This document shows positions 5,868 to 13,939 of a stretch of 40,763 nucleotides of DNA, in pieces. A program made the position numbers and the translations under genes. The stretch comes from Bacillota bacterium. Its GTDB lineage: Bacteria > Bacillota > Sulfobacillia > JAJZYS01 > JAJYTV01. Positions within the stretch are counted from its first letter, which is position 1; every line of letters begins with the position of its first letter. Under the pieces are notes generated by a model. That model did not search any database. It worked only from the letters and a program-made list of their open reading frames with translations, and was not told where the DNA came from. Where the stretch lies: contig JAJYTE010000023.1 in NCBI GenBank assembly GCA_021793215.1, positions 1 to 40,763 on the forward strand, written 5' to 3'.

Positions 5868-7214
5868 CTATGACAGAGCGGGCGGGTCCATGTCCGGCAG
5901 CGAGAGGATGAGGGTCGTACCCTGCCCAAGCTCGCTCTCCACCGAGAGGTCGGCGCCGATGGACAGGGCGAGGTGACGAGCGATCGAGAGCCCGAGCCCC
6001 GACCCGCCGGTCGCCCTCTGGCGCGAGCGGTCGACGCGGTAGAACCGCTCGAAGATGCGCGGCAGATCGTCCGCCGGGATGCCCGGGCCGTCGTCCACGA
6101 CGCGCAGGTACGGCCCAAGCGCACCGTGCCCCGTCTCGACGCGGACGTGGCCGCCCTCCTGGGTGTACGTCACGGCGTTGTCGACGAGCGAGATCACGAT
6201 GCCCTCGATGCGGTCGCGGTCGCTCAGCACGCGAGTCTCCTCACCGGCGACGTCGAGCGACACGCCGCGGGAGCGTGCGGTCTCGCCGTAGCGATCGGCG
6301 ACGGCCCGGGCGACTTCCCGCAGCGGCACCTCGGCGCGCTCGGGGCGCGTGCGTCCGCTCTCCAGCGCCGCGAGGCGCAGGAGGTCGTCGACGAGCAGCG
6401 TCAGGCGCTTCGTCTCATCGTTGATGTGGCGCAGGAAGCGCTCCCGGCGCTGCTCGTCCACGCTGCCGCCGAGGAGTGTCTCGGCGAAGCCGCCGATCAC
6501 CGTCAGCGGCGTGCGCAGCTCGTGCGACACATTGGCAACGAACTGGCTGCGCACCTCGAGGAGGCGCCGCTCCTCCGTCACGTCGGTGGCCACCAGCAGG
6601 ACGCCGCCGGCGCCGCGCACCGGCGCGAGGTCGATCTGCAGCACGCGACCGTCCTCGCGGCGCTCGATCTGCATCACCTCACCCTGCTCCACGCGGTCGA
6701 GCGCCGACTCGAGCGCGTAGGCATGCGTGATCGCCAGGTGGTAGGTCTCCACCACCTCGGGCGCCCAGACGCCGAAGATCCGCTCCGCCGCGGGGTTGAC
6801 GACCTGGACGCGCCGCCGCTGGTCGAGTAGCACGACGCCGCTCTGCAGGTTGTGGATGATCGCCTGGAAGCGGGCCCGGTCGACCTCGAGCGCCGAGAGG
6901 GCGCCCTGCAGCCGCGCGAGGCCCTGGTTGAACTGCTCTCCGACGTCGCCGGCGTCGGCGCGCGCGAGGTAGAGCCGCTCCGTCCGACGACCGTCGGCGA
7001 AGGCGTCGAGCGCGCGCGTCGCCGCCTCGAGGTCAAGGCGCGCGCGCCGCTCCAAAAACCCGCCCAGCAGCACGCCGGCGATGGCGCCGCCCACTCCGCC
7101 GACGATGCCAAGTTCGACCCCGTTCGGCGCCCCCTGGATGATCCACGCGAAGGCGCCGACCAGGACGAGACTGATCCCCGCGCCCAGGAGCGCCCCGGCC
7201 TTCCAGGTGCTCAT
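5868..7214 (-). CDS. phoR: PhoR-type sensor histidine kinase with PAS domain
   Basis: A 448-aa membrane kinase. Two N-terminal transmembrane segments (about 7-27 and 34-53) have almost no extracellular loop between them, as in kinases that sense through the Pst/PhoU complex. A linker, then a PAS domain (about 113-215), and HisKA with FVANVSHELRTPL (His231) follow. The HATPase has the VDNAVTYT N-box, DDGPGIP, FERFYR and GGSGLGLSI. ATG 7214 overlaps the phoP stop as ATGA. Its place between phoP and pstS makes phosphate starvation the likely signal. Confidence 0.93.
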   Translation of the reverse strand: MSTWKAGALLGAGISLVLVGAFAWIIQGAPNGVELGIVGGVGGAIAGVLLGGFLERRARLDLEAATRALDAFADGRRTERLYLARADAGDVGEQFNQGLARLQGALSALEVDRARFQAIIHNLQSGVVLLDQRRRVQVVNPAAERIFGVWAPEVVETYHLAITHAYALESALDRVEQGEVMQIERREDGRVLQIDLAPVRGAGGVLLVATDVTEERRLLEVRSQFVANVSHELRTPLTVIGGFAETLLGGSVDEQRRERFLRHINDETKRLTLLVDDLLRLAALESGRTRPERAEVPLREVARAVADRYGETARSRGVSLDVAGEETRVLSDRDRIEGIVISLVDNAVTYTQEGGHVRVETGHGALGPYLRVVDDGPGIPADDLPRIFERFYRVDRSRQRATGGSGLGLSIARHLALSIGADLSVESELGQGTTLILSLPDMDPPALS

Positions 7215-7888
7215 GCCTGGGCGAAGCGGTAGCCGACGCCCCGCACCGTTTCGACGAGGCGCGGTCGCGACGGCTCCTCCTCCACTTTCTCGCGCAGGTG
7301 GCGCACGTGGACGTCGACGGTCCGCGCATCGCCGTAGAAATCGTAGCCCCAAACTCTCTGCAGCAGGATCTCCCGCGTCAGCACCTGGCCAGGCCGCTCC
7401 ATCAGGGCGCGCAGGAGCCCGAACTCCGTCAAGGTCAGCGCGACCTCCCGCTCTGCGACGTAGCAGCGATGCGCCGCCAGATCGAGCGTCACTCCGCCCG
7501 CCGAGATGCTCTCGGCGTCCGGCTCCGACCGCCGCAGCACGGCCTTGACGCGCGCCACGAGTTCCCTCGGAGAGAACGGCTTGCCCATGTAGTCGTCCGC
7601 GCCGAGCTCGAGCCCGCGCACCCGGTCGGCCTCTTCGGTGCGGGCCGTGAGCATGATCACCGGCAACCTGCCGAGCTTGCGCAGTTCGCGCAGCACGGCG
7701 ACGCCGTCCACCTTCGGCAGCATCAGGTCCAGCACGGCGAGCTGCAACTCCTCTTCGCGCGCGAGCGCGATCGCCTGCTCGCCGTCCACCGCCTGCACTA
7801 CGGTGAACCCCGCCTCCTCGAGGTGGAAGGCGACGAGCTCACGGATCGCTTCCTCGTCCTCGACCACCAGCACCCGGTCGCGGCGCAA
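7211..7888 (-). CDS. phoP: PhoP/PhoB-type response regulator
   Basis: A 225-aa OmpR-class regulator. The receiver domain has the acidic pair (EDEE), phospho-acceptor Asp54 (VLDLMLP), the T/S switch (LTAR) and Lys in GKPFSPREL. The C-terminal winged helix has the ALTLTEFGLL and GDARTVDVHVRHLR stretches. It starts at TTG 7888 with GGGGG 7 nt upstream. It is the first gene of the phoP-phoR-pstSCAB-phoU operon, and a candidate Pho box (7939-7955) lies directly upstream, suggesting positive autoregulation. Confidence 0.94.
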   Translation of the reverse strand: MRRDRVLVVEDEEAIRELVAFHLEEAGFTVVQAVDGEQAIALAREEELQLAVLDLMLPKVDGVAVLRELRKLGRLPVIMLTARTEEADRVRGLELGADDYMGKPFSPRELVARVKAVLRRSEPDAESISAGGVTLDLAAHRCYVAEREVALTLTEFGLLRALMERPGQVLTREILLQRVWGYDFYGDARTVDVHVRHLREKVEEEPSRPRLVETVRGVGYRFAQA

Positions 7889-7964: not shown

Positions 7965-8813
7965 CTACGGCGTGCCGATCAGGCGCCGCATCTCCTCCGG
8001 CGACGGCAGTTCGACGCGCTTCGCAGTGATGTTCGCCGCCAAGACGTTCAGCGCCGTCATCTGCTCCACCATGTGGCGCACGTGGTCTCGGGCGCCCTGC
8101 AGCACGGTTGGGATGTGGTTGCCGAACACGACGCTCACGTCGAGGTGGAGGACGAGACCGTCCGACCACGTCTCCATCGTCACCCTTCGGACGCGGGCGA
8201 TCCCCGGCGCCTCCTGCGCCGCCCGCGCGGCGATCGTCGACACGCAGGTGTCGTCGATCGTGAAGCGGCCGAGGTAGCTCCAGGTCGGCCGCACGACCGA
8301 CTTCTCGATCACCATCTCGCGGCGCTCCTTGCTGCGCAGGATGAAGCGCAAGGGGTCGACCAGGTAGCCCGAGAAGGTCCGCTTCACCTCGACCGTTGGC
8401 GCAGGGATGACGTGCTTGCCCTGCTCGCGGCGCACGCGCTGCGCGTGCCGGATCTCCTCCGGGCTCGCGACATCTTCGATGTGCAAGACGCGCGAAGGCT
8501 GCGGCAGCCCCAGTACGCTGCAGATCCGCTGCACCATGCCGAGGGACGTGCCCAGCACGAGCACGCGCTCGGGAGGCACCTCGCTGAGGCGCCTTCGCAT
8601 GCGCTCCGCGTCGGCGGCGTGTCCGAAGATGGCGCGCCGCACCGCCTCGAGCTTCGAGGGGGCGCGCTTCGCCGACTCCCCGGCGAGGATCTTTCCCTCA
8701 CGCACCAGGAGGCCGTCGTCGATCACGGAGTCGGCGCCGAGTTCGACGGCGACGAGCGACGCGCGATGGCTCTTCCCGGAGCCGCTCGGGCCGACGAACG
8801 CGATGACCTCCAC
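7965..8813 (-). CDS. P-loop NTPase fused to an Asp23/Gls24-like domain
   Basis: A 282-aa cytoplasmic protein. The N-terminus has a Walker A motif (GPSGSGKS, residues 8-15) and a kinase-like middle with a hydrophobic RVLVLGTSLG strand. The C-terminal part (about 181-270) matches the Asp23/Gls24 (DUF322) pattern: TIDDTCVSTIAARAAQE, then VDVSVVFG-type strands and EQMTALNVLAANI. GTG 8813 is preferred over ATG 8834 because AGGAGGG lies 7 nt upstream and the protein then begins MEVIAFVGPSGSGKS. It is the last gene of the thioesterase-tyrA-aroH group, 29 nt after aroH. The substrate is unknown. Asp23 proteins in Bacillota are linked to the cell envelope, so an ATP- or GTP-driven envelope role is only a guess. 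Confidence 0.75.
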   Translation of the reverse strand: MEVIAFVGPSGSGKSHRASLVAVELGADSVIDDGLLVREGKILAGESAKRAPSKLEAVRRAIFGHAADAERMRRRLSEVPPERVLVLGTSLGMVQRICSVLGLPQPSRVLHIEDVASPEEIRHAQRVRREQGKHVIPAPTVEVKRTFSGYLVDPLRFILRSKERREMVIEKSVVRPTWSYLGRFTIDDTCVSTIAARAAQEAPGIARVRRVTMETWSDGLVLHLDVSVVFGNHIPTVLQGARDHVRHMVEQMTALNVLAANITAKRVELPSPEEMRRLIGTP

Positions 8814-8842
8814 GCCGATCCCTCCTGAGCGCATGATATCAC

Positions 8843-9208
8843 TCAGCCGGGCGGGGCAAGATCAGGGCGCAGCGAGAGGGTCTCCCCGAGGTAGACCGGC
8901 CGAAGCTTCTCGCGCTGCGGCCGCTCCACCTCGACGAGGATCCGGATCATCCGGCGGGGCGCGGTTTCGACCGCCGTCTCCACGGCGCCAAGAAGCGGCA
9001 CGTCGGTCCACCCGAGGCGCCGCGCGGCGTAGGCGGGAAAGGCCGCGTCGAGGTCCGGGGTCATCGTGAAGAACGCCGCGACGACCTCGTCCTTCTCGAT
9101 CCCATTGCGCTCGATGAGCGCCCGCAGGAGCTCCTCCGTCGCATCCCAAATGGCCTGCTGGCTGTTCTCCGCCGCCACCGTGGCACCGCGCACCGCGCTA
9201 ACCGCCAT
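8843..9208 (-). CDS. aroH: Chorismate mutase, AroH type
   Basis: A 121-aa monofunctional enzyme converting chorismate to prephenate, the substrate of the neighbouring prephenate dehydrogenase. It has the trimeric AroH fold pattern: VRGATVAAEN at the N-terminus with Arg7, Glu77 in GAVETAVET, and Arg89 in RMIRILVEV, corresponding to the Arg7/Glu78/Arg90 set known for the Bacillus enzyme. ATG 9208 is chosen because GGGAGG sits 6 nt upstream; an ATG at 9214 would be directly against the ribosome site. It overlaps the tyrA stop by 11 bp, indicating a coupled tyrosine branch. Confidence 0.93.
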   Translation of the reverse strand: MAVSAVRGATVAAENSQQAIWDATEELLRALIERNGIEKDEVVAAFFTMTPDLDAAFPAYAARRLGWTDVPLLGAVETAVETAPRRMIRILVEVERPQREKLRPVYLGETLSLRPDLAPPG

Positions 9209-9992
9209 CTCCATCCTCCCGTAGTCTGCGCGCGATCCGCGAAGCGGCCGAGAGCAGCGCCTCGTCGCCCGACGCAGCCGCCTCGAGTGCAGCCTGCGCA
9301 TCGCGCACGGCGTCGTCGACCCCCGACCGGTTCATCTCCAGGATCTCGCGCCAAAGTGCGATAGGGCTCGTCGCAACGCGCAGCATCTCGCGCGCCGCCG
9401 GGCCGATCAGTTCCTCGGGGACGCCCTGCAGGAGCTCCGCGAGCGCGCAGCTCCAGGCGTAGACGAGGTGGGAGGAGCGGGCGACGAGGCGGTCGTGCTC
9501 CTCCGCGTCGATCCAGATCGGTCGCGCACCCAGCGCCCGCACGATCTCCTCCGCCGCCGCGCGTGGCCCGCCGCCCGGGCAGAGCGCGAAGCCGCGTCCG
9601 GCGAACAGTCCGGCCAGGGCACCGAAGGGTCCTGCGCCCTCCGTCCCGGCCAGGGGGTGCCCGCCCACGAAGGGCAGTCCCGCCGCCCCGGCCCGCCGCA
9701 CGATCTCCTGCTTCACCGAGCCCGTGTCGAGCCAGAGCGGTGCGGCGGCGCCCGCGGCGAGCAACCCGAGGTTCGCCCGCGGCGGCGCGGCCAGTACGAT
9801 CGCGTCGAAGGCGCCGGAGGGGGCCTCGAGCGCCTCGTCGATCGCCTGAAGTCTTCGCGCCTCGCCCAGGTGCTCTGGCTTGAGGTCGTAGCCGTAGACC
9901 CTGAAGCCCTGCACCCGCAAGTCGAGCGCCAGCGACGTGCCGATCAGTCCGAGTCCGAACACGGCGACTCGCGGCCGAGAGGGGTTGCCCAG
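9198..9992 (-). CDS. tyrA: Prephenate dehydrogenase, probable CTG start
   Basis: A 264-aa NAD(P)-dependent enzyme turning prephenate into 4-hydroxyphenylpyruvate for tyrosine. The Rossmann motif RVAVFGLGLIG (GxGxxG at 13-18), the DTGSVK stretch, the GGHPLAGTE catalytic histidine loop and DRLVARSSHLVYA are all present. The usual starts are unsatisfying: GTG 9962 would cut the first beta-strand and has no ribosome site. An in-frame CTG at 9990-9992 has a perfect AAGGAGG (10000-10006) 7 nt upstream and gives a complete Rossmann strand, so CTG initiation is proposed. The protein lacks a C-terminal ACT domain. Confidence 0.9.
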   Translation of the reverse strand: MGNPSRPRVAVFGLGLIGTSLALDLRVQGFRVYGYDLKPEHLGEARRLQAIDEALEAPSGAFDAIVLAAPPRANLGLLAAGAAAPLWLDTGSVKQEIVRRAGAAGLPFVGGHPLAGTEGAGPFGALAGLFAGRGFALCPGGGPRAAAEEIVRALGARPIWIDAEEHDRLVARSSHLVYAWSCALAELLQGVPEELIGPAAREMLRVATSPIALWREILEMNRSGVDDAVRDAQAALEAAASGDEALLSAASRIARRLREDGDGG

Positions 9993-10088: not shown

Positions 10089-10529
10089 CTAGTCCGGGCG
10101 CGCTACGACGCGATTCCTGAGCGCAGAGAGGATCTCCGCGGGGAACGGGACGGCCCGGTGCTGGGAGCGCTCGAGGTGCGCTGCGATCAGTTCGCTCGTC
10201 GCGGCGAGCTCGCCGGTGACGGAGCGGTGAATCTGGTGGCGGTAGCGGATCGTCTTCTCGCGCACCTCGAGGAGCTCGGTGAACGCGACGACCGTGTCGC
10301 CCGGGAAGAGCTCCTTGTGGTAGGTCGTCTCCTGCGCCAGCGCAGCCATGCCGCAGCCGCTCATGTCGAAGTAGGGTCGGCTCAGGCCATTGCGGGCGAA
10401 GAACGTCCAGTTGGCCGCATCGAAGATCTGCGCGTACCTCGCGATGTTCACGTGCCCCATGTGGTCCGCGTCGGACGGGTACACGACGCCGACGAAGGTC
10501 GGGGTCTCCTCTGCCGAAAGACCGCTCAC
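10089..10529 (-). CDS. Acyl-CoA thioesterase, 4HBT (hotdog) family
   Basis: A 146-aa hotdog-fold hydrolase of acyl-CoA thioesters. The YPSDADHMGHVNIARY segment carries the catalytic-type Asp22 in a DxxGHVN context, and the ETTYHKELFPGD and RYRHQIHR strands follow as in YbgC/FatA-like proteins. GTG 10529 is preceded by AGGGGGAG, while the frame extends upstream only as a shadow of asnB. It heads the leftward group with tyrA, aroH and the P-loop/Asp23 gene, 96 nt before tyrA. The physiological substrate cannot be told from sequence. Confidence 0.87.
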   Translation of the reverse strand: MSGLSAEETPTFVGVVYPSDADHMGHVNIARYAQIFDAANWTFFARNGLSRPYFDMSGCGMAALAQETTYHKELFPGDTVVAFTELLEVREKTIRYRHQIHRSVTGELAATSELIAAHLERSQHRAVPFPAEILSALRNRVVARPD

Positions 10530-10662
10530 GGCTCTCCCCCTTGCTCCTGCACTCTGGAACCGTTTGCCTCGCCGCGCAATACGGTACGGGTGGCGTCGGG
10601 ACGGCGGGCGGCCACGCACGCTCGCCATCCCGGCCACGTTGCGGCAAGGGGAGCGAAGTCTT

Positions 10663-12552
10663 GTGTGCGGAATCGCCGGCTGGGTCGATTGGCGACGGGA
10701 TCTCAGACAGGAGGCGGCCACGCTGGAGCGGATGGCGGCCGCCATGGCTCCACGGGGTCCCGACGACGCGGGCCTCTGGCTCTCGCCGAACGCGGGGTTC
10801 GCCCACCGGCGCCTGATCGTAGTGGATCCCACGGGAGGGGTCCAGCCGATGCAGCGGCGCTACGGCACGCGTCGCTTCGCGATCGTCTACAACGGCGAGC
10901 TCTACAACACGGAGGACCTGCGCCGTGACCTCGTGGCCAAGGGGTACCGCTTCGAGGGGCACTCCGACACGGAAGTGCTGCTCGCCGCCTACGCCCACTG
11001 GGGCGAATCGTGTCTTCCCCGCCTGAACGGCATCTTCGCCTTCGCGGTGTGGAACGAGGCCGAGGAGACGCTCCTTCTGGCGCGCGATCGGCTCGGCGTG
11101 AAGCCACTGTTCTACACGGAGCGCCCAGACGCCTTCCTCTTCTCCTCGGAGCTCAAGGGCCTCTTGGCGAACCCGCTGGTGCCAGCCGAGCTGGACCGCG
11201 AGGGGCTGAGCGAGGCGTTCCTGATGGCGCCGTCGCGCACGCCGGGCCACGGCGTCTTCCGCGGGGTCAAGGAGCTGCGCCCTGGCTTCAGCATGCGCGT
11301 GACGCGCCGCGGCGCGCGCGCGCGCCAGTACTGGTCGCTCTCGGCGCGCGAGCACACGGAGGGGCCCGAGGAGACGGCCCAGCGGGTGCGCGAGCTACTG
11401 CGCGACGCGGTAGAGCGCCAGCTCGTCTCCGACGTGCCGATCTCCACGCTGCTCTCGGGCGGCCTCGACTCGAGCGCCGTCACGGCGTTCGCGGCCCAGG
11501 GCATGAAGGACCAGGGGCGCGGAGCGCTGCGGACCTTCTCCGTGGAGTTCGCGCAGATGGACCGCCATTTCCGCCCCTCCGCCTTCCAGAAGTCCCTGGA
11601 CGCGCCGTGGGTGGAGCGCGTCTCGCAGCTGTTCGCCACGGACCATCGCCGCGTCGTGCTCGACACGCCAGAACTCGTGCGCTACCTGGGTGCCGCGCTC
11701 ACGGCGCGCGACCTGCCGGGCATGGCAGACGTCGACACCTCTCTCCTCCTCTTCTGCCGGAATGTGCGAGAGGATGCGACCGTCGCACTGTCGGGCGAGT
11801 CCGCCGACGAAGTGTTCGGCGGCTACCCCTGGTTCTTCCGCGAGGACGCGCTCGCGGCCCACACCTTCCCTTGGGCCTTGCGCCAGAAAGACCGGGTGGC
11901 CCTTCTCAATCCGGAGTTCGCCGACTGGCTGCGTCCGGAGGAGTACGTGGCGGGCCGGTACGAGGAGGCGCTCTCGGAGGTGCCGGCCCTGGAGGGCGAG
12001 GATCCGCAGGAGGCGCGCATGCGACAGCTCCTCTACCTCAACATCACGCGCTTTTTGCCGACGCTCCTGGACCGCAAGGACCGCATGAGCATGGCCGCGA
12101 GCCTCGAGGTGCGGGTCCCGTTCTGCGACCACCGCCTCGTCGAGTACGCCTACAACATCCCGTGGAAGCTCAAGACCCTGGGCGGCCACCCGAAGGGCAT
12201 CCTGCGCGCGGCGCTGCGCGGCGTGCTGCCGGACGACGTGCTCTACCGCCCGAAGAGCCCCTACCCCTCGACGCCCAACCCGAACTACCTCGCCGCGATG
12301 CGCCGCCAAGCGCTCGAGGTGCTCTCGGACCCCGGCTCGCCGCTCGGCGCCTACCTGAACCGCCCGGCGATCGAGCGCCTCGCGCGCGATGAGCAGGATC
12401 CCTTCGCCCTGCCCTGGTTCTCGCAGCTGATGGGCCTCGCCCAGTGGTTCTCCTACGTCGTGCAGCTCGACCTCTGGCTGCGCTCGTACAGCATCCGGCC
12501 CGTCGCCGACGCGGCCGCCCCCGCCCCGCTGCAGGTCGCCGCGCGGACCTGA
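10663..12552 (+). CDS. asnB: Asparagine synthase (glutamine-hydrolysing), class II
   Basis: A 629-aa cytoplasmic enzyme making asparagine from aspartate, ATP and glutamine. The GTG start is directly followed by Cys2, the glutaminase nucleophile (CGIAGWVD), with RGPDDAG, RRLIVVD and NGELYN as the rest of the Ntn domain. The synthetase half has the PP-motif SGGLDSS (265-271), LSGESADEVFGGY and LDRKDRMSMAASLEVRVPFCDH. GTG 10663 is fixed by the Cys2 rule and by AAGGGGAG 9 nt upstream. It is transcribed divergently from the thioesterase group; 133 bp separate the starts. Confidence 0.95.
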   Translation: MCGIAGWVDWRRDLRQEAATLERMAAAMAPRGPDDAGLWLSPNAGFAHRRLIVVDPTGGVQPMQRRYGTRRFAIVYNGELYNTEDLRRDLVAKGYRFEGHSDTEVLLAAYAHWGESCLPRLNGIFAFAVWNEAEETLLLARDRLGVKPLFYTERPDAFLFSSELKGLLANPLVPAELDREGLSEAFLMAPSRTPGHGVFRGVKELRPGFSMRVTRRGARARQYWSLSAREHTEGPEETAQRVRELLRDAVERQLVSDVPISTLLSGGLDSSAVTAFAAQGMKDQGRGALRTFSVEFAQMDRHFRPSAFQKSLDAPWVERVSQLFATDHRRVVLDTPELVRYLGAALTARDLPGMADVDTSLLLFCRNVREDATVALSGESADEVFGGYPWFFREDALAAHTFPWALRQKDRVALLNPEFADWLRPEEYVAGRYEEALSEVPALEGEDPQEARMRQLLYLNITRFLPTLLDRKDRMSMAASLEVRVPFCDHRLVEYAYNIPWKLKTLGGHPKGILRAALRGVLPDDVLYRPKSPYPSTPNPNYLAAMRRQALEVLSDPGSPLGAYLNRPAIERLARDEQDPFALPWFSQLMGLAQWFSYVVQLDLWLRSYSIRPVADAAAPAPLQVAART

Positions 12553-12579: not shown

Positions 12580-12694
12580 CCCTCCCAGACCGCAGGGGGA
12601 GATGCGCCCCGCGGCGAAGTCGCAGGGCAAGGAACGGCGCCGGCGCATGCCGCGCCGCGGCGGGGCAGAGCCTCGCCGGCCGAGGAGGTGCCCT

Positions 12695-13939
12695 GTGGCG
12701 GTCATAGCGCTCTGCGACGTCAACGCGATGTTCGCCAGCTGCGCCGCGCTCGAGGATCCGTCCCTGCGAGGAAAGCCTCTGCTCGTGGCGGGCGACCCGG
12801 GCGATCGACGCAGCATCGTGCTCACGGCGAGCTACGAGGCGCGCGCCTTCGGCGTGCGCACCGCGATGCCCGTCGCGATGGCGCTGCGCCTCTGCCCCGG
12901 CGCGAGCATCGTCGCCCCCGACCACGATCTCTACCGGCGCTACAGCCGGCGGCTCTTCGACTGCCTGCAGGAGTTCACGCCGATCGTCGCGCCCGTCAGC
13001 ATCGACGAGGCGTTTCTGGACCTCACCGGATGCCCTGGCATCTCTGCGGGCCCGCAGGCGCTGGGCGAGCAGATCCGCGCGCGCGTCCTTAGCGCCATCG
13101 GCCTCACGGTCTGCGTTGGCCTCGCACCCGGACGCTGGCTCGCGAAGATGGCGGCGGACCTCGCGAAGCGGCGAGAGGGCGGCGTGCTGCATCTCCTCGG
13201 CGAGGACATGCCGCGGGAGATCTGGCCGCTGCCCGTCGAGGCGTTCTACGGCGTCGGGCCGAAGACCGCCGAGCGCCTGCACGCGCTAGGCATCCGCACG
13301 ATCGGCGAGATCGCGCAGAGCGACGCGATCGCGCGGCTTGGCCACCACGGCGAAGAACTGCGCCGCCTCGCGCAGGGCGAGGATCCCTCGCGCGTGGAGG
13401 CGGAGGGCGCCGCGAAGTCCGTCTCCCACGAGCTGACGTTCGGCAGCGACATCGCCCGCCCGGAAGAGCTGCGCGGCGTTCTCCTGTCCCTGTGCGACCA
13501 GGTGGCCTACCGCCTGCGGCGAAGCGGCCTGCGCGCGGGCAGCGTGACCCTGCGCCTTCGCAGCAGCCGATTCCAGACCTTCACGCGCCAGGCTCCGCTG
13601 CCCGCGCCCGCGCAGCGCGCCGACGCCCTCTTCGCGCGCGCGCTCGAACTCCTGCCGCGCATGCCGAAGGCCGCGTTCCCCGCCCGCCTCGCCGGGATCG
13701 CGGCAGGTGCGCTCAGCGAGGCGAGCGCGGATGCGCCGTCCCTCTTCCCAGACCCGGAGACGGAGCGGCGCGAGCGCCTCGCCGACGCGGTGACCGCCCT
13801 TCGCGCCCGCTACGGCGAGGCCGCCGTGCTGCCGGCGGAGACACTCGGCAGCGCCGCGGAGGAGAGCTACGACCGGCGCCGCCACGGCACGTCGTTCGGC
13901 AAGCCGGGGCGGCGCCAGGAGCCGCGCGACGAGCCGTAG
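12695..13939 (+). CDS. dinB: DNA polymerase IV (Y family)
   Basis: A 414-aa low-fidelity translesion polymerase. The first catalytic motif is DVNAMFASC (Asp8), then TASYEARAFGV, and the second acidic pair is SIDEAFLDL (Asp104, Glu105). The KMAADLAKR and YGVGPKTAERLHALGI helix-hairpin-helix follows, and a little-finger domain ends near 350. GTG 12695 has GAGGAGG 6 nt upstream; the longer frame to 12602 is Arg-rich and not conserved-looking. No beta-clamp motif is obvious, and I see no LexA-like (GAAC-N4-GTTC) box before it. Confidence 0.92.
   Translation: MAVIALCDVNAMFASCAALEDPSLRGKPLLVAGDPGDRRSIVLTASYEARAFGVRTAMPVAMALRLCPGASIVAPDHDLYRRYSRRLFDCLQEFTPIVAPVSIDEAFLDLTGCPGISAGPQALGEQIRARVLSAIGLTVCVGLAPGRWLAKMAADLAKRREGGVLHLLGEDMPREIWPLPVEAFYGVGPKTAERLHALGIRTIGEIAQSDAIARLGHHGEELRRLAQGEDPSRVEAEGAAKSVSHELTFGSDIARPEELRGVLLSLCDQVAYRLRRSGLRAGSVTLRLRSSRFQTFTRQAPLPAPAQRADALFARALELLPRMPKAAFPARLAGIAAGALSEASADAPSLFPDPETERRERLADAVTALRARYGEAAVLPAETLGSAAEESYDRRRHGTSFGKPGRRQEPRDEP

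Follow-up and report, generated by a model that had tools for sequence, protein, structure and literature searches.

The window analysed here, a stretch of 40,763 nucleotides from a Bacillota bacterium (contig JAJYTE010000023.1), carries on its minus strand, in this order, tyrA, aroH, a gene in which a P-loop domain is fused to an Asp23 domain, phoB, phoR, pstS and further pst genes. The parts of the fusion gene and its two immediate neighbours are as follows.

7965-8813, minus strand: P-loop/Asp23 fusion gene (282 aa, GTG start, stop at 7965)
8821-8826, minus strand: ribosome-binding site AGGAGG, seven bases 5' of the GTG at 8813, read from the sequence
8421-8813, minus strand: P-loop kinase-like domain, residues 1-131 (66 sequences; model block with pLDDT 74-98)
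8256-8420, minus strand: conserved linker, residues 132-186, with the motif GKHVIPxPTxEVK (from pairwise identity)
8010-8255, minus strand: Asp23 domain, residues 187-268 (PF03780; predicted CDF-like fold)
8843-9214, minus strand: aroH-type chorismate mutase, upstream, start inferred (PF07736, 125.7 bits; TIGR01796, 108.5 bits, above cut-off)
7211-7888, minus strand: phoB-like (OmpR-type) response regulator, downstream (PF00072 and PF00486)

An alternative start (ATG at 8834) would lengthen the product to 289 residues. Since AGGAGG precedes the GTG at 8813, and since the aligned relatives begin at the residue equivalent to this codon, the product is likely the one of 282 residues, the same length that the first-pass annotation had given. 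Substitution rates relative to the nearest relative (locus L034; dN 0.058, dS 0.632) and to locus L035 (dN 0.168, dS 0.66) follow a pattern that implies selection on the protein, and the frame is therefore not a product of chance.

The two halves of the fusion protein

The C-terminal half, which had at first been named as Asp23-like, is a true Asp23 domain: the window protein matches PF03780 with 38.7 bits (cut-off 28, E 1.5e-9), and so do, at E<=1e-3, all 25 members of the family alignment (25 full-length relatives, window protein included). When ten members were scanned one by one, nine exceeded the cut-off; a Sulfobacillus member (L087) scored 23.8 bits, under it. The fusion thus has, like the other members of the Asp23/Gls24 family (YqhY, YloU, S. 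aureus Asp23), an Asp23 domain above the curated cut-off, and it has in common with the YqhY of its own genome the C-terminal pattern IPxVxQxxxDxVxxxVExMTxLxV. It differs from these stand-alone proteins in the invariant P-loop domain and linker added at the N-terminus, and in the divergence of its Asp23 part (about 23-47 bits, where most stand-alone copies among the matches listed reach 83-142). In AmaP-like proteins as in the fusion, it is chiefly the C-terminal half of the Asp23 profile (positions ~50-107) that is matched, although the fusion has no obvious hydrophobic anchor (by eye) and has a P-loop instead. In the predicted model, the Asp23 part (residues 185-269) can be superimposed on the C-terminal domain of the CDF transporter MamM (Z 12.8, rmsd 1.9, 79 residues). 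This predicted fold is similar to that of the C-terminal domains of MamM, MamB and YiiP, which dimerise, but the identity is 13%, the fusion lacks the transporter part, and the common fold shows no function.

Of the two halves, the Asp23 part varies more, with a mean pairwise identity of 0.30 and one invariant position in the 25-sequence alignment, where the P-loop part reaches 0.53 with 25 invariant positions and the linker 0.62 over residues 132-158 (0.52 over 132-186). Almost all invariant residues fall within the P-loop part and the linker, and this far stronger conservation suggests that the conserved activity seems to reside there, and not in the domain after which a database names the protein.

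The proposal of a P-loop domain with a Walker A motif (GxxxxGK[ST]) in the N-terminal half is borne out by the invariance of GxxGxGKS in all 66 aligned relatives, so that the protein likely binds ATP. The positions invariant throughout the 66 N-terminal sequences include G8, G11, G13, K14 and S15 of the Walker A motif, the D32-D33 pair with which strand 29-32 ends, and also T89, S90, R128, H134, P137 and P139. The 66 sequences have no conserved acidic residue in common at the usual Walker B place (the end of strand 83-88, LGTS), and their consensus is devoid, by inspection, of the N/TKxD base-recognition motif of TRAFAC GTPases. The Pfam profile AAA_33 (PF13671) gives 22.8 bits for the window protein (below the cut-off of 27) and matches 56 of the 66 members at E<=1; the window protein stays below the cut-off of all Pfam P-loop families, and no NCBIfam model fits it. 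Sequence searches against solved structures returned only weak P-loop or designed proteins, and the best match in PHROGs (E 7e-4) extends over 30 residues. A likeness to HPr kinase, whose C-terminal domain (PF07475) has a similar spacing between the P-loop and the two aspartates, was also tried and is weak (E<=1 in four of 66 members, best 0.028).

The full-length model has a mean pLDDT of 78.6, with residues 134-185 below 50. Because the Asp23 part dominated the fold search with the whole protein, residues 1-187 were modelled and searched separately (pLDDT 77.6); the linker is of low confidence in both models. A Foldseek search of the PDB with this N-terminal model found nothing at E<=0.001, and its best matches, all above this value, were cytidylate (CMP), shikimate, dTMP and gluconate kinases. 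VIA-align returned Clp1, adenylate kinase and others with Z about 5-6 (best 6.2), values that may reflect a common arrangement and nothing more; taken as a whole, the comparison of predicted folds leans weakly towards small-molecule and nucleotide kinases. The domain therefore resembles those of AAA_33 and of the NMP, shikimate and gluconate kinases in its Walker A motif, in the alternation of strands and helices, and in weak profile and fold similarity, but in the window protein it stays under every curated cut-off, and it has no conserved Walker B residue at the usual place, an acidic pair after strand 2 and a linker motif of its own.

Two ways of joining these halves into a function were weighed at this point. 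The nucleotide switch put forward by the first-pass annotation, in which the P-loop domain would bind and hydrolyse ATP and so turn Asp23-Asp23 assembly on and off, can draw on the invariant Walker A motif and on S. aureus Asp23, which forms filaments and polymerises in vitro and in vivo according to PMC6954212. We call it a guess and consider it unlikely, given that no switch motif was seen, that the consensus has no GTPase NKxD-type motif, and that the conserved linker and the kinase-like fold neighbours suggest chemistry over a pure switch. We also find it doubtful that the protein is a soluble small-molecule or nucleotide kinase, whose Asp23 domain would be a dimerisation module only, with no role in the envelope: the kinases among the N-terminal fold matches and the CDF-like fold predicted for the Asp23 part speak for such an enzyme, but the scores are weak, no LID-type region is resolved in the N-terminal model, and no neighbouring gene recurs across lineages to hint at a pathway.

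Distribution and genomic company

The fusion is old and common in clostridia-like bacteria. In a sample of 199 genomes across the phylum, it is present at full length in 87 genomes and in 44 of 100 families (we counted the long matches of a single-sequence search, whose raw tally of 117 genomes takes in matches to stand-alone Asp23 proteins), and it is therefore no peculiarity but a widespread conserved family. A profile of the N-terminal part matched 88 of the 199 genomes, 87 of them at 183-302 bits and one (G017) at 29 bits, leaving a gap from 30 to 183 bits. Each of the 87 strong matches sits in a frame no shorter than 269 aa, and the genomes have one copy each, except for G153, a fragmented assembly with the fusion on two contigs. 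From this gap in the scores and the length of the frames it follows that the P-loop module is always fused; a P-loop-plus-linker module lacking room for an Asp23 domain was never seen in the 199 genomes, and the two modules form an obligate pair in this family of clostridia-like Bacillota, which is present in single copy. The match in G017 (contig 73, 12611-12700) is a 30-residue P-loop remnant in a 44-aa frame, either a decaying copy or a contig edge.

A scan of genome contigs gave at least 558 confirmed relatives, and every title among the best-scoring 80 names Bacillota/Firmicutes, Clostridia or their subgroups; being the best-scoring, these 80 loci lean towards the kin of the window and one gut group. 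A phage or plasmid origin was rejected, as the fusion occurs in none of 50,697 phage records and in one of 72,556 plasmid records (Monoglobus pectinilyticus), and is thus not a mobile gene. This plasmid copy is annotated in RefSeq as 'Asp23/Gls24 family envelope stress response protein', and the large family is indeed named in the database by its less conserved half only. The possibility of a known widespread family with an assigned function, raised in the first-pass annotation, is right as to the spread, but no assigned function was found in the literature, where we found neither a description of the P-loop/Asp23 architecture nor an experiment on any member; two papers have 'Walker A' alongside 'Asp23 family', in both cases as the name of an author.

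Asp23 proteins as such are nearly universal in the phylum (196 of the 199 genomes). A sporulation factor was rejected: of the 26 genomes that have no SpoIVA match (six of them assigned by absence from the match list), 10 carry the fusion, as do 77 of the 173 that have one (Fisher p 0.67). As a rule, the fusion is present in addition to YloU and does not take its place: among the matches listed, in a hand-chosen sample of 50 of the 199 genomes (near-complete, mostly from different families), YloU adjoins YloV in 15 of 25 genomes with the fusion and in 21 of 25 without it (p 0.11).

Gene neighbourhood

The aromatic and phosphate genes reported beside the fusion in the first-pass annotation are present in the window, where a prephenate dehydrogenase also lies upstream and, beyond the response regulator, a histidine kinase is followed by a PstS-like binding protein. 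The frames at the places of PstC and PstA had no Pfam match at E<=1e-5, and PstB and PhoU were identified by eye from the sequence. Elsewhere in the window, a Y-family DNA polymerase-like gene (12602-13939) stands beside an asparagine synthetase-like gene (10390-12552), both named by eye.

Within the best 80 of at least 558 contig loci, a TyrA-like gene is upstream in four, which are all close kin (L034-L037), and the gene downstream of the fusion is PhoB-like in 13; 11 of these 13 regulators have 53-84% identity to that of the window and two are distant (37%). Gene order was counted over 75 of these best 80 of at least 558 loci (in L034, L043, L045, L050 and L073 the fusion was lost in the overlap filter). 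The commonest downstream gene is cmk, often joined to plsC (39 of 75; domains checked on one example locus), followed by an OmpR-type regulator (12), an iron-sulphur electron-transfer protein (six) and rpoN (five). A set of 29 loci has gapA next in five (L005, L008, L009, L011 and L012, of the same class as the window and from two other families), a phoB-like gene next in one (L017) and, by eye, hisC-like, DNA glycosylase and DnaD-like genes among others in the remainder. A gapA-pgk pairing lies beside the fusion in some lineages, and the genes on either side of the Monoglobus pectinilyticus plasmid copy are rex and one for a DNA glycosylase.

The aromatic and phosphate neighbours thus look like a lineage-specific, local arrangement, and the coupling to aromatic genes tells little about function. 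The aroH neighbour is context, outside the conserved anatomy of the family, and the phoB-like neighbour is context only. The fusion is kept while its neighbours vary, which argues for a self-standing function. That the protein is a component of phosphate signalling, working with PhoB/PhoR and Pst, is highly improbable, for while the gaps to the adjoining PhoB-like genes are often tiny or overlapping, 67 of the best 80 of at least 558 loci have no such neighbour and the five gapA loci of the same class have gapA in its place.

A possible role on the Asp23/AmaP scaffold

We tentatively prefer to read the protein as a divergent enzyme or regulator with a kinase-like P-loop domain, which would be attached through its Asp23 domain to an Asp23/AmaP membrane scaffold. 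In this proposal, the N-terminal module would be a compact kinase-like P-loop domain, probably binding ATP and Mg2+, in which D32 and D33, the acidic residues closing the second strand, may take the part of Walker B or of a catalytic base, and the conserved linker would probably complete the active site or bind a partner. The Asp23 domain would most likely dock the enzyme on other Asp23 proteins (YqhY, AmaP, YloU) under the membrane, allowing a phosphotransfer or hydrolysis step to act on envelope or lipid metabolism. Both the docking and the reaction are what we infer, and the link to lipids is suggested by analogy with other family members and by gene neighbours sampled mostly from one gut group.

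Support for this reading comes from the window's own genome, whose three Asp23 matches are the fusion, the YqhY encoded after accC, and an AmaP-like protein that has half an Asp23 domain; the frequency of cmk with plsC as downstream neighbour, in the best-scoring loci described above, also favours it. It is weakened by the different neighbours of other lineages, by the absence of any Pfam P-loop match at cut-off and of any PDB match at E<=0.001, by fold matches at Z values that a common arrangement might explain, by the want of a conserved acidic residue at the usual Walker B place, and by the low-confidence linker. Regarding the known proteins, S. aureus AmaP binds and anchors Asp23 (PMC6954212), the YqhY of B. 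subtilis has a link to acetyl-CoA carboxylase and appears to restrain this enzyme (PMC5437119), yqhY is essential in C. difficile (PMC12548448), and the cyclophilin-bound proteins of this organism include YloU and YqhY (PMC6459899).

A more specific version, in which ATP turnover by the divergent P-loop kinase domain controls the Asp23/AmaP scaffold, or is delivered by it, and the family is an undescribed, widespread regulator, seems to us rather unlikely, if still worth stating. If true, the fusion would be the first catalytic member of the Asp23 family and would give an enzymatic handle on envelope lipid control. In any case, an Asp23 protein that is conserved and also carries a nucleotide-binding domain provides an activity to assay, and with it a route to asking what the Asp23 domain does.

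Two further observations concern the same genome (G000). The AmaP-like protein (183 aa; L001:905-1456, contig 39) lies behind yqhY and matches the second half of the Asp23 profile only; it may share its origin with the fusion. Its YloV, a short YloV/FakA-like frame of 336 aa (L115:1411-2421, contig 79; profile positions 2-302 of 530), has no YloU beside it and directly follows DegV-like and PlsX-like frames, these two named by eye.
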